Positions 23,537 through 29,570 of a DNA stretch of 39,118 bases are shown in pieces (positions within the stretch are counted from its first letter, which is position 1; the number at the start of each line of letters is the position of its first letter). The DNA is from Cyanobacteria bacterium K_DeepCast_35m_m2_155. Its GTDB lineage: Bacteria; Cyanobacteriota; Cyanobacteriia; PCC-6307; Cyanobiaceae. A program made the translations under genes and the position numbers. The notes below the pieces were generated by a model. That model was given only the letters and a program-made list of their open reading frames with translations, ran no database searches and had not been told where the DNA came from. Location: the NCBI GenBank assembly GCA_016882285.1, contig VGQS01000008.1, positions 1 to 39,118 on the forward strand. The letters are read 5' to 3'.

Positions 23537-24589
23537 ATGTCTGCAGCCCAAGCCGAGACCCTGCAGCAATCGGTGCGCCAGTACTACGGCAGCACCCTGA
23601 GCGGCAGCGCCGATCTGCGCACCAGCGCCTGTTGCGATGCAACCACTGTGCCGCCGGCCCTCAAGCCCCTGCTGGCGCGCATTCACCCGGAGGTGAGTGC
23701 CCGCTATTACGGCTGCGGTCTGGTGGCACCGCCTGTGCTTGAAGGAGCCCGGGTGCTTGATCTGGGTTGCGGCAGTGGCCGCGATGTCTATCTGCTGGCC
23801 CAGCTGGTGGGCCCGGCTGGCCAGGTGGTGGGCGTCGACATGACCCCTGAGCAGCTGGCCGTGGCGCTGCAGCACCAGGGTTGGCATGCCGAGCAGTTCG
23901 GCTACGCCAATGTGCGCTTTCTCGAGGGACTGATCGAGCAGCTCGATCAGCTTGATCTTGAGCCCGCCAGCTTCGATGTGGTGGTCTCGAACTGTGTGGT
24001 CAACCTGGCCACCGACAAAGGGGCGGTGCTCGCGGGTGTGCGGCGCCTGCTTAAGCCCGGCGGCGAGTTCTACTTCGCCGATGTGTACGCCGATCGGCGC
24101 ATCGATCCGGCCCTCAGAGACGATCCGGTGCTCTACGGCGAGTGCCTCTCTGGCGCGCTCTATTGGAATGATTTTCTGCGTGTGGCCCGCCAGAGCGGTT
24201 TTGCCGACCCGCGTCTGGTGAGCAGCCGGCCGCTGAGCATCAGCGATCCCGCGTTGGTGGCCCGGCTTGGGGCTACGCGCTTTTTTTCGGCCACCTACCG
24301 GTTGTTCAACATTGCCGAGCTCGAAGACGCCTGCGAAGACCACGGTCAGACCGTGCGTTACCTGGGCAACGCGGCCGGCAACCCTGAGGCCTTCGATCTC
24401 GACGATCACCACCACTTCGAGACCGGCCGCAGCGTGCCGGTGTGCGGCAACACCTTCCGCATGCTGCGCCAGAGCCGATTTGCGGATCATTTCGCCTTTG
24501 ATGGCGATTTTGCGCGGCATTTCGGTCTGTTTGCCGGCTGCGGCGGTGGGCTGCCCTTCAGCCTCGAGAGCAACGGCTCCTGCTGCTGA
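23537..24589 (+). CDS. arsM: ArsM-type arsenite S-adenosylmethionine methyltransferase
   Basis: VLDLGCGSGRDVYLLAQLVGP..VVGVDMTPEQL, VVSNCVVNLATDK, directly follows arsS. Confidence 0.92.
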   Translation: MSAAQAETLQQSVRQYYGSTLSGSADLRTSACCDATTVPPALKPLLARIHPEVSARYYGCGLVAPPVLEGARVLDLGCGSGRDVYLLAQLVGPAGQVVGVDMTPEQLAVALQHQGWHAEQFGYANVRFLEGLIEQLDQLDLEPASFDVVVSNCVVNLATDKGAVLAGVRRLLKPGGEFYFADVYADRRIDPALRDDPVLYGECLSGALYWNDFLRVARQSGFADPRLVSSRPLSISDPALVARLGATRFFSATYRLFNIAELEDACEDHGQTVRYLGNAAGNPEAFDLDDHHHFETGRSVPVCGNTFRMLRQSRFADHFAFDGDFARHFGLFAGCGGGLPFSLESNGSCC

Positions 24590-26529: not shown

Positions 26530-26543
26530 AGTACATCAGTACT
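26530..26543. promoter_or_regulatory. LexA (SOS) box upstream of the first umuD-like gene
   Basis: AGTACATCAGTACT, full match to cyanobacterial RGTACNNNDGTWCB. Confidence 0.8.
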
Positions 26544-26551
26544 GTGAACTG

Positions 26552-27142
26552 GTGTGCGTTGAGGTGCTGATGGCTGGGTCGCATGGCTGGTTGCGGGAGC
26601 GGGGCTTGCCGCCGCAGGGGGCTGCCTGCCGAGGTGTTGAGCTCACGCTGCTGGGCCCTGTGTTGCCCGTGGCTGAGCCCGTGCTGTTGCCCTTGGCCCT
26701 TGAGGCGGTGGCCGCTGGTTTTCCCAGCCCTGCGGCCGACTATGTCGAGGCTTCGATCGACCTCAACGTTGAGCTGGTGCCCCATCCGAGTTCGACGTTC
26801 TTTCTGCGGGTCGAGGGCGAAGCCATGGCCGCCAGTGGTATCAGCGACGGTGACTTGCTGGTGGTGGATCGCAGCGTGACGCCCCGCCGCGGCTCGACGG
26901 TGGTTGTGGTGCACGGTGGTCAGCTGCTGCTGCGGCGCCTCGAGGGCGGTGCGCCGCGTTGGCGCCTGGTGGCTGACGATCCGTTGCTGCCGCCGCTGGC
27001 CCTCAACGGCGATGACCCCCACCTGCTGATCTGGGGGGTGGTCATTCATGCGGTGCATCACCTCACCAGAAGCCCTGGCGGTGCAGCCACAGGCCCAGCA
27101 GCAACATCGGCACAAACACGGCCCCGGCGATCTGCAGCTTGA
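26552..27142 (+). CDS. UmuD-like S24 protein lacking the catalytic Ser and Lys
   Basis: GFPSPAADYVEASIDLN matches E. coli UmuD GFPSPAADYVEQRIDLN; GISDGDLLVVD; catalytic positions read GEAM and LLLRRL; start GTG 26552 or ATG 26570. Confidence 0.88.
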   Translation: MCVEVLMAGSHGWLRERGLPPQGAACRGVELTLLGPVLPVAEPVLLPLALEAVAAGFPSPAADYVEASIDLNVELVPHPSSTFFLRVEGEAMAASGISDGDLLVVDRSVTPRRGSTVVVVHGGQLLLRRLEGGAPRWRLVADDPLLPPLALNGDDPHLLIWGVVIHAVHHLTRSPGGAATGPAATSAQTRPRRSAA

Positions 27143-27209
27143 TCACCAGGGGCGAGGGTTGCTTGTCCTTGTTCTGGCGGCCGGCTTGGCGGGGGGTGGT
27201 GCGGCCCAT
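27063..27209 (-). CDS. Small (48 aa) single-TM protein
   Basis: MGRTTPRQAGRQNKDKQPSPLVIKLQIAGAVFVPMLLLGLWLHRQGFW*; antisense to the 3' tail of the first umuD-like gene. Confidence 0.5.
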   Translation of the reverse strand: MGRTTPRQAGRQNKDKQPSPLVIKLQIAGAVFVPMLLLGLWLHRQGFW

Positions 27210-27246
27210 GGCAACTGTGACGATTGATGCGACTTTGCCTGGTTTT

Positions 27247-27262
27247 GGTCGCGTTTGCGACC
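27247..27262. other. Perfect inverted repeat in a divergent intergenic region
   Basis: GGTCGC-GTTT-GCGACC. Confidence 0.6.
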
Positions 27263-27335
27263 ATTGCCGCGCCCCCGCAGGCACCCCTTCTTCGCTTTCG
27301 CTTAAGATTTGAACTGTCTCCAGCGCGGTGCGCGT

Positions 27336-27488
27336 GTGAATGACAACCATCCCGTTCTGAATGCTCTGGAGGCTCAGCTGCGGGAGTTGCGCCTGCGTTA
27401 CGAGCATCACCCCAGCGAGCACAACCGTTATCAGCTGGTCAAGCTCGAGCGTCTGATCACCGAGTGGGCGCCGGGGAGCCTGAACTGA
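27336..27488 (+). CDS. Small (50 aa) basic/helical protein, missing from the ORF track
   Basis: GTG start; MNDNHPVLNALEAQLRELRLRYEHHPSEHNRYQLVKLERLITEWAPGSLN*. Confidence 0.65.
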   Translation: MNDNHPVLNALEAQLRELRLRYEHHPSEHNRYQLVKLERLITEWAPGSLN

Positions 27489-27855
27489 GTTCGCCCGTCG
27501 TGCGGCACTGCAAGACCCTGGCTTTGCCGCGCCGCCAGGTGGCTTGATCGCCCTTGACCCAGAACACCTCGTCGCCGTCTGCATAGCGGGCTCCGCTGCC
27601 CGAGCGCTGTTGCAGAAGCCTTGAGGCTCCTTCTGTACCGGTGAGCAGCACCACCTCGCTGGGGGCTGCGTTGAAGAACAGGGCGCGCACCTCGCTGGCA
27701 TCAAAGGTTCCGCTGCACAGGTACGTGGCGCGGACCGGTTCTTCGGCCTGGGCGCTGCGCGGCGCGCTGATCAGGGCGCTGGTTGCGACCGTCAGCCCGA
27801 TCAGCGTGGCTGCTGCCCTCCACGGAGCGGATGCGGGGTGATGGGGCTGGCTCAC
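27457..27855 (-). CDS. MliC-like (membrane-bound lysozyme inhibitor) secreted protein
   Basis: Signal peptide; YLCSGTFDASEVRALFFNAAPSEVVLL...LLQQRSGSGARYADGDEVFWVKGDQATWRRG. Confidence 0.8.
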   Translation of the reverse strand: MSQPHHPASAPWRAAATLIGLTVATSALISAPRSAQAEEPVRATYLCSGTFDASEVRALFFNAAPSEVVLLTGTEGASRLLQQRSGSGARYADGDEVFWVKGDQATWRRGKARVLQCRTTGELSSGSPAPTR

Positions 27856-27920
27856 GGCTGGCTGCGCAACGCTGCGAGGTCAGCTTGGCGCCGGCACCCA
27901 AGCCTGTCAGCTTCAAAAGT

Positions 27921-27934
27921 GGTTCAAGTGTACT
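27921..27934. promoter_or_regulatory. LexA-box-like site upstream of the second umuD gene
   Basis: GGTTCAAGTGTACT, one mismatch to RGTACNNNDGTWCB. Confidence 0.6.
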
Positions 27935-27947
27935 AATTTAGAGGGGT

Positions 27948-28283
27948 TTGCTGGGGGCGGCCGTGGCGCAGGGTGTTGATCTGGCGGCTTGGCTGGTGCG
28001 TGATCCAGCCTCGGCGCTGCTGCTGCGGGTGAGCGGCCCATCGATGCAGGGCGCCGGCATTCGGCACGGTGATCTGCTGGTGCTCGACTGCGGCCTGCCG
28101 CCCAGGCCTGGTCATGTGGTGGTAGCCCGTCTGGACGATGGTTTCACCGTCAAACGCCTGGTGCACCGGCGCGGTGGGCTGGCCCTGCAGGCGGCCCATC
28201 CGGCCTATCCGCTGCTGCCGCTTGAGCCTGATGGCGATCACCAGCTGCTGGGGGTGGTGCGCCATGTGATCCGCCGCCTGTGA
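27948..28283 (+). CDS. umuD: UmuD'-like S24 peptidase with Ser/Lys dyad, lacking the cleavage arm
   Basis: LLLRVSGPSMQGAGIRHGDLLVLD, GFTVKRL; in-frame TAG at 27939-27941; TTG 27948 or GTG 27963 start; 6 nt before umuC. Confidence 0.9.
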   Translation: MLGAAVAQGVDLAAWLVRDPASALLLRVSGPSMQGAGIRHGDLLVLDCGLPPRPGHVVVARLDDGFTVKRLVHRRGGLALQAAHPAYPLLPLEPDGDHQLLGVVRHVIRRL

Positions 28284-28289
28284 GCTGCC

Positions 28290-29570
28290 ATGGCCGCGGC
28301 GATCGTGCTGATTGATGGCAACAACTTCTACGCCTCCTGCGAGGCGGTGGTGGATCCGGCGGTGGTGGGCAGGCCACTGGTGGTGCTCTCCAACAACGAC
28401 GGTTGCATCGTCTCGCGCAGCGCCCAGGCCAGGGCCCTGGGTATTCCCATGGGCATGCCCTATTTCAAGCTGCGCCAGCAGCTTGAGCGCCAGGGGGTGG
28501 TGGTGCGCAGCTCCAATTACGCCCTCTATGCCGACATGAGCCACAGGCTCATGACCACGCTGGAGCGCTGGGTCGAAGAGCTGGAGATCTACTCGATTGA
28601 CGAAGCCTTCGGTCTGCTGCACCGGCCGGCGGGGGGCGATCTCACGGGCTGGGGCCGGGCCCTGCAGCGCGAGGTGCAGTGCTATCTGGGGTTGCCGGTG
28701 GCGGTCGGTATCGCCGCCACCAAGGTGCTGGCCAAGATCGCCAACAAGGCCGCCAAGGCCGATGCGGGCCGCAGCGGTGTGCTGGATCTCGCCAGTGAGC
28801 ACAATCCCGACGCCCTGTTGGCGAGCGTCGCCATCGACGATGTCTGGGGCATTGGCCGGCGTCTGGCGCGTTGGTGCCGCCTGCGGGGGGTGGCCGATGC
28901 CAGGGCCCTGCGCGACATGCCCAGCGGTGAGCTCAGGCGCAAGTGCGGTGTGGTGGGCCTGCGGTTGCAACAGGAGCTGCGCGGCCACGCCTGCTTGCCG
29001 CTGGTGCTGCAGCCACCGCCCAAGCAGGAAACCTGCGTGAGCCGCAGCTTCAGTCGGCCGGTTGAGACCCCCGAGGCGTTGCGCGAGGCTGTCGCCACCT
29101 ATCTGGTGCGCGCCGCCGAGAAGCTGCGGCAGCAGGCGCAGCGCGCCGGATCGATCACGGTGTTTGTGCGCAGCAGCCCGTTCAACGGCACCAGCTTGTA
29201 CAGCCAGGCCGCCACCGTCACCCTGCCCGTGGCCAGCAACGACACGGCGGTGCTGCTGGCGGCGGCGCTGCCGCTCACCGCCCGCCTGTTTCGCCCCGGC
29301 AAGCCGCTGCACAAGGCCGGTGTGCTGTTGCAGCAGCTTCAGGGTGACGATCTGCTGCAGCACCATCTACTGGTGCCGTTGACGCCTGGTCAGCAGCGCC
29401 GGCGCGAGCGGCTGATGGCGGTGATCGATGCTCTCAACTGCCGCTATGGCCGCGGCGCTGTGCAGTGGGCCGCCTGCGGCCTGCAGCCCGCCTGGGCCAT
29501 GCGTCGCTCACGGCTCTCGCGAGCCGCCACCACCTGCCTGGCCCAGATCCCGGTGGTCCACGCTCGCTGA
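28290..29570 (+). CDS. umuC: Y-family DNA polymerase V catalytic subunit
   Basis: IVLIDGNNFYASCEAV, VVLSNNDGCIVSRS, YSIDEAFG, VGIAATKVLAKIANK. Confidence 0.97.
   Translation: MAAAIVLIDGNNFYASCEAVVDPAVVGRPLVVLSNNDGCIVSRSAQARALGIPMGMPYFKLRQQLERQGVVVRSSNYALYADMSHRLMTTLERWVEELEIYSIDEAFGLLHRPAGGDLTGWGRALQREVQCYLGLPVAVGIAATKVLAKIANKAAKADAGRSGVLDLASEHNPDALLASVAIDDVWGIGRRLARWCRLRGVADARALRDMPSGELRRKCGVVGLRLQQELRGHACLPLVLQPPPKQETCVSRSFSRPVETPEALREAVATYLVRAAEKLRQQAQRAGSITVFVRSSPFNGTSLYSQAATVTLPVASNDTAVLLAAALPLTARLFRPGKPLHKAGVLLQQLQGDDLLQHHLLVPLTPGQQRRRERLMAVIDALNCRYGRGAVQWAACGLQPAWAMRRSRLSRAATTCLAQIPVVHAR

Follow-up and report, generated by a model that had tools for sequence, protein, structure and literature searches.

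The 39,118-nucleotide stretch of contig VGQS01000008.1 from Cyanobacteria bacterium K_DeepCast_35m_m2_155, a member of the Cyanobiaceae (hereafter the window), encodes two UmuD paralogues with complementary losses. UmuD1 keeps the N-terminal arm and the cleavage site but lacks the catalytic residues, whereas UmuD2 keeps the catalytic residues but starts past the cleavage site, directly ahead of umuC. Self-cleaving S24 proteins, such as LexA, UmuD and the repressors of phages, serve as textbook examples of self-acting switches, and cleavage of UmuD has been argued to occur both in cis and in trans; in the present pair, enzyme and substrate appear to have been separated by evolution. It seems probable to us that UmuD2 processes UmuD1 in trans, within a heterodimer serving UmuC. 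With slightly tempered confidence, we propose a two-gene SOS switch, in which gene duplication would have divided an autoprotease into two proteins, one an obligate substrate and the other an obligate enzyme, each under its own promoter, activation of DNA polymerase V (pol V) would need the two to meet in trans, and later lineages would have dropped the enzyme and run the polymerase with a UmuD unable to cut itself. If this is true, the timing of error-prone repair would be set by the ratio of two proteins rather than by one protein's own clock, and the natural pair would allow trans cleavage to be measured without engineered mutants.

The two UmuD-family open reading frames (ORFs) are both unbroken at the coordinates given in Table 1 and are separated by a gap of 0.8 kb, with umuC beginning 6 bases past the UmuD2 stop codon. 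Aligned with E. coli UmuD, UmuD1 (...LEAVAA/GFPSPAADYVEASIDLN...VEGEAM...LLLRRL...; the slash marks the predicted cut) has its cut site in place (AA/GFPSPAADY) and carries Ser60 to Ala and Lys97 to Arg replacements, with GEAM in place of the E. coli GDSM and LLLRRL in place of TVKKL. UmuD2 (...VAQGVDLAAWLV...VSGPSM...FTVKRL...) has both catalytic residues and starts past the cut site, its frame opening about 7 residues ahead of the segment equivalent to E. coli residue 34. Neither chain combines the Ser60–Lys97 dyad with a cleavage site, UmuD1 having the site without the dyad and UmuD2 the dyad without the site, and, judged from their sequences, neither should be able to cleave itself. The complementary losses claimed by an earlier, sequence-only reading of the window are borne out by the intact ORFs, the S24 matches, the aligned residues and the conservation of the pattern in relatives.

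Both proteins match the Pfam family Peptidase_S24 (PF00717; Table 1). Against the NCBIfam model NF007621 (cut-off 110 bits), UmuD1 scores 116.9 and UmuD2 87.0, the latter without the N-terminal model positions; both fall below the cut-offs of the curated HumD model (120 bits; 66.7 and 28.9, respectively) and of the lexA model (110.95 bits; 49.7 and 45.8). No helix-turn-helix family match was found in either protein by the Pfam family scan. The AlphaFold2 models have a predicted local distance difference test score (pLDDT) of 86.5 for UmuD2 and of about 91 for the UmuD1 core; the arm is poorly modelled (pLDDT 50–61), and its placement was therefore left unused. The top Protein Data Bank matches found by Foldseek for both models are E. 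coli UmuD' (1ay9/1umu) and RecA-bound UmuD (8gmt), 1umu being the best for UmuD2.

Table 1. Features of the umuD1 and umuD2-umuC loci (positions in the window)
Feature	Position	Strand	Remarks
LexA box of umuD1, AGTACATCAGTACT	26530..26543	+	0 mismatches
umuD1 (U1)	26552..27142	+	Armed, catalytically dead UmuD; Pfam PF00717, 5.7e-22
Likely start of umuD1, ATG	26570	+	Judged by Shine-Dalgarno-like spacing and relatives
Predicted cleavage site Ala/Gly (AA/GFPSP)	26714..26719	+	Alignment; equivalent to E. coli C24/G25
UmuD1 Ala at catalytic Ser60 position	26822..26824	+	Ala in 66/66 copies
UmuD1 Arg at catalytic Lys97 position	26933..26935	+	Arg in 66/66 copies
LexA box of umuD2-umuC, GGTTCAAGTGTACT	27921..27934	+	1 mismatch
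umuD2 (U2)	27948..28283	+	Arm-less, catalytically intact UmuD core; Pfam PF00717, 2.7e-18
Likely start of umuD2, GTG	27963	+	Judged by Shine-Dalgarno-like spacing and relatives
Catalytic Ser of UmuD2	28041..28043	+	Ser in 57/57 copies
Catalytic Lys of UmuD2	28152..28154	+	Lys in 56/56 readable copies
umuC (pol V catalytic subunit)	28290..29570	+	PF00817, PF11799, PF13438 (DUF4113); operon with umuD2

To place the pair among relatives, the loci of 82 Cyanobiaceae genomes with a readable UmuD were fetched and read. Both paralogues occur in 56 of them (Cyanobium usitatum Tous, Synechococcus sp. CS-1332 and Cyanobium sp. FGCU6 among the named carriers), UmuD1 only in nine, UmuD2 only in none and a single canonical UmuD in 17; a canonical UmuD stands alongside either paralogue in 0 of the 82. 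The sequence-only reading had named a lack of co-occurrence in relatives as an outcome that would refute it, and with the pair in 56 genomes this refutation failed. The genes lie close together in all six genomes of the window's genus (6/6), but are far apart in four more genus groups (g6, g31, g46 and g59), as in the single contig of G204, where they lie at 88,450 and 2,419,532; over the 56 genomes, the pair is mostly unlinked. UmuD2 is adjoined by umuC in every genome showing both, and UmuD1 lies outside the umuC operon. The diagnostic residues are invariant in all readable copies (Table 1), with Ser and Lys in 17/17 canonical proteins; chance or misalignment was ruled out, as about 140 aligned sequences give the same result. 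A duplicated umuD in Cyanobium gracile PCC 6307 has been mentioned without further comment (PMC5101192). No published description of a split UmuD was found, subscription papers being mostly outside the search.

The UmuD tree was built from 118 columns, the catalytic ones excluded. UmuD2 forms one clade (Shimodaira–Hasegawa-like approximate likelihood ratio test, 99) and UmuD1, together with a related third paralogue (U3), forms another (98), both inside canonical Cyanobiaceae UmuD. Because the paralogue clades nest within canonical UmuD even with the catalytic columns excluded, the tree indicates one duplication followed by complementary loss; several independent origins were rejected, since it needs a single origin for each paralogue. 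In the umuC tree, canonical genomes fall inside the split set, and, given the single origin of each paralogue in the UmuD tree, transfer or replacement of umuDC is the likelier explanation of that placement. Two UmuD2 proteins (G324 and G363) carry an apparent decayed cut site, AAGLPLSVDH or AAGLPLGGDD, which looks like a relic of the arm.

Changes at single sites were counted by parsimony on the UmuD tree and are given here as amino-acid/codon changes. Across 66 UmuD1 copies, Arg97 (0/21), Ala60 (0/8), Gly25 (0/18), Phe26 (0/14) and Ser28 (0/14) compare with a per-site mean of 6.9/15.7, and in UmuD2, Ser60 (0/5) and Lys97 (0/6) compare with 7.2/13.3. Since synonymous changes occur and non-synonymous ones are essentially absent at these key sites, the counts indicate that purifying selection maintains both states, "dead" in UmuD1 and "live" in UmuD2. 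With Ala and Arg at these places UmuD1 evidently still folds, so the fold by itself does not call for Ser and Lys in UmuD2, and proteolytic use is the simple reading of their invariance. The ratio of non-synonymous to synonymous substitution rates (dN/dS) ranges from 0.07 to 0.62 over the comparisons, partly inflated by ORF stretches ahead of the true starts, and is 0.16 between UmuD1 and the G002 copy; with the ORFs intact, these values rule out a pseudogene.

LexA boxes were sought with the consensus RGTACNNNDGTWCB and counted when present upstream of a gene with at most one mismatch. Such boxes precede 60/66 UmuD1, 52/56 UmuD2, 15/17 canonical and 9/9 stand-alone umuC genes, against a rate in shuffled sequences of 1–6% overall and about 5–6% for the UmuD1 and UmuD2 upstream regions. 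They agree with the published cyanobacterial LexA box AGTACWNWTGTACT (PMC3091678), and the LexA-box-like sites reported earlier on both genes of the window are confirmed by these counts and by the few mismatches listed in Table 1.

The separate boxes, the lack of linkage outside the window's genus and the survival of UmuD1 after loss of UmuD2 (see below) would also suit two proteins acting independently, with UmuD2 a constitutive UmuD' for UmuC, UmuD1 working for another polymerase or in regulation, and the complementary losses a product of parallel decay. We regard this as improbable: purifying selection acts on Ala60, Arg97 and the cut site of UmuD1 and on Ser and Lys of UmuD2, whereas decay would not be invariant, and UmuD2 is never seen without UmuD1.

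In the trans processing of UmuD1 by UmuD2 that we favour, a canonical self-cleaving UmuD would have duplicated once in an ancestor of a Cyanobiaceae (Cyanobium/Synechococcus) group, and its two jobs would have been divided. UmuD1 would have become a dedicated substrate, retaining the arm and cleavage site and acquiring Ala60 and Arg97, and UmuD2 a dedicated arm-less protease core, comparable to a permanently "pre-cleaved" UmuD' and probably co-transcribed with umuC. Upon damage, cleavage of LexA would induce both genes, as their boxes suggest, and the products would pair as E. coli UmuD and UmuD' do. Before the cut, the UmuD1 arm may keep the dimer from working or target it for degradation, by comparison with E. 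coli UmuD/UmuD'; on the RecA filament, the active site of UmuD2 would cut that arm in trans, and the resulting UmuD1'–UmuD2 dimer would then serve UmuC as pol V.

Precedent for these steps comes from E. coli, in which UmuD is able to cut in trans and pairs preferentially with UmuD', and UmuD 18, active but truncated in its arm, efficiently cleaves UmuD S60A within heterodimers in the presence of RecA and single-stranded DNA (PMC5342242). The E. coli UmuD/UmuD' system shares the S24 fold, the cleavage-site motif, the umuC partner and LexA control, but there one gene gives both substrate and enzyme, whereas here two genes are each stripped of the other's function. By analogy, the cyanobacterial pair is a natural form of the UmuD 18/UmuD S60A experiment, both combining an active core without a usable arm with a dead, armed partner. 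The differences are that the former is a conserved natural pair and the latter a laboratory construct, and that here a Lys97 to Arg replacement is added and the cut-site region is gone from the enzyme. HumD of phage P1, a natural UmuD' homologue according to McLenigan et al. 1999 as cited in PMC4713147, is likewise a UmuD-family core described there as produced without an N-terminal arm; however, UmuD2 scores only 28.9 bits against the HumD cut-off of 120 and is in every case accompanied in its genome by a partner gene for a dead, armed UmuD. UmuDAb of Acinetobacter is also an extra UmuD-family protein with a specialised task (PMC4807011, PMC8565304), but self-cleavage is expected of neither UmuD1 nor UmuD2.

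Two natural controls bear on whether UmuD2 cuts UmuD1. The first comprises eight genomes (G063, G113; G303, G366, G369; G314, G319; G354) with UmuD1 and UmuC but without UmuD2, in which umuC lies directly behind its own LexA box. An assembly gap was ruled out in all 8, as the contig runs on upstream of that box; the ninth UmuD1-only genome (G027) is 62% complete, and umuC was not found in it. In the umuC tree, the UmuD2-less genomes represent at least two losses. At the P1 residue of the cut site, Ala is found in all 58 remaining UmuD1 copies (0 amino-acid/12 codon changes), whereas Ser or Thr occurs in three UmuD2-less lineages, all three changes falling within 19% of the tree length (p=0.007). 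Of 129 sites, P1 alone shows at least three changes confined to these lineages, which also offer a natural test of whether pol V needs UmuD cleavage. One of them (G314, locus L107) has a near-duplicated UmuD1 cut region (SGFPGPTSGFPSPADDY).

The second control is another branch (G084, which is Synechococcus lacustris, G108 and G127) whose sole UmuD begins at the cut site, lacks an armed partner and carries Ala in place of Ser60. The protein of S. lacustris and its relatives belongs to the same family as UmuD2, has also lost its arm and also adjoins umuC, but differs in where it starts, in its Ser60 to Ala change and in lacking an armed partner. These three proteins (L352, the same gene as L218 of S. 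lacustris; L353; L354), with an arm reduced to a few residues ahead of the cut site, correspond to a natural constitutive UmuD'. The controls suggest that loss of the substrate can precede loss of catalysis and that loss of the enzyme can precede drift at P1; both patterns are expected if UmuD2 cuts UmuD1, and few independent events lie behind either.

In favour of trans processing, we count the exact complementarity, the absence of UmuD2 without UmuD1 in spite of their being mostly unlinked, the invariant Ser and Lys of UmuD2, the P1 changes restricted to UmuD2-less lineages, the Ser60 loss in partnerless arm-less UmuD, the LexA boxes on both genes, the two paralogue clades nested in canonical UmuD and the E. 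coli precedent. Several points weigh against it. Eight genomes keep UmuD1 and UmuC without UmuD2, and UmuD1 must therefore have a role independent of UmuD2. GFPSP is invariant in these genomes as well, so the motif has a use beyond cutting by UmuD2, and three of them (G303, G366 and G369) keep Ala at P1. Five other single UmuDs (g25; L355–L358 and L088), whose arms are likewise down to a few residues, keep Ser and Lys, so arm loss need not be followed by decay. Furthermore, the co-occurrence goes back to a single origin and not to repeated gains, the UmuD tree is based on 118 columns, and LexA, with its intact S24 dyad, could be the cutter. The trans switch proposed in the sequence-only reading is accordingly upheld in part: co-occurrence, complementary residues, purifying selection on both halves and the E. 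coli precedent speak for it, and the persistence of UmuD1 with UmuC in UmuD2-less genomes of at least two lineages speaks against it.

The invariance of GFPSPA-DY even where UmuD2 is missing would be accommodated if UmuD1 were never cleaved and, staying full-length for good, joined UmuD2 to hold pol V back or to target UmuD2 for degradation, as a checkpoint or anti-mutator, with GFPSP kept for contacts. E. coli UmuD indeed delivers UmuD' to ClpXP, and the full-length protein has interactions of its own (PMC5342242). We nevertheless consider such a role unlikely, as it leaves unexplained the invariance of Ser and Lys in UmuD2, the change of P1 Ala only where UmuD2 is missing and the decay of Ser60 in partnerless arm-less UmuD.

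A different S24 protease, LexA being the most plausible, might cut UmuD1 in trans, with UmuD2 a mere UmuD'-like partner of UmuC; this would account for UmuD1 in UmuD2-less genomes. The source genome (1.74 Mb, 83% complete) has one further S24 gene, a LexA with an intact VAAGG site, NGDSM and TTLKH, and most of these genomes encode no S24 protein besides LexA and the UmuDs. LexA usually cleaves weakly in trans, however; the strict conservation of Ser and Lys in UmuD2 would go unexplained, and no link between P1 Ala and UmuD2 would be predicted. We judge this alternative very unlikely.

Beyond the Cyanobiaceae, the dead UmuD1 core was sought with the DNA pattern GDAM..GI..GDLL, which matched 5 of 291 class-wide genomes, all of them Cyanobiaceae; being strict, the pattern would overlook dead forms of other kinds. 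In about 150 UmuD relatives, drawn from other bacteria and from viral contigs, the residues are Ser and Lys, with three odd exceptions, and a viral origin was ruled out, as the UmuDs among 80 viral-contig loci are canonical Ser/Lys proteins. In Modicisalibacter ilicicola (L227) and a Sphingobacterium metagenome-assembled genome (L234), UmuD homologues beside an intact umuC have His/Gln and Cys/Arg in place of Ser/Lys and keep the cut-site motif; both genomes contain more S24 genes, and independent trans processing is possible in these cases.

The paralogue U3 occurs in G148 (L161), G197 (L162), G354 (L112) and Cyanobium usitatum Tous (L349); it lacks the catalytic residues (GHGL/GHRL/GNGM, LLRPL) and the cut site and has LexA-box-like sites. 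G351 carries two near-identical umuD2-umuC copies (L155 and L159), each near a contig end, which represent a duplication or an assembly artefact. Elsewhere in the window, an ORF at 23537–24589 (+) resembles, as judged by eye, an arsenite methyltransferase, with an S-adenosylmethionine motif (DLGCGSGRD) and several cysteines.

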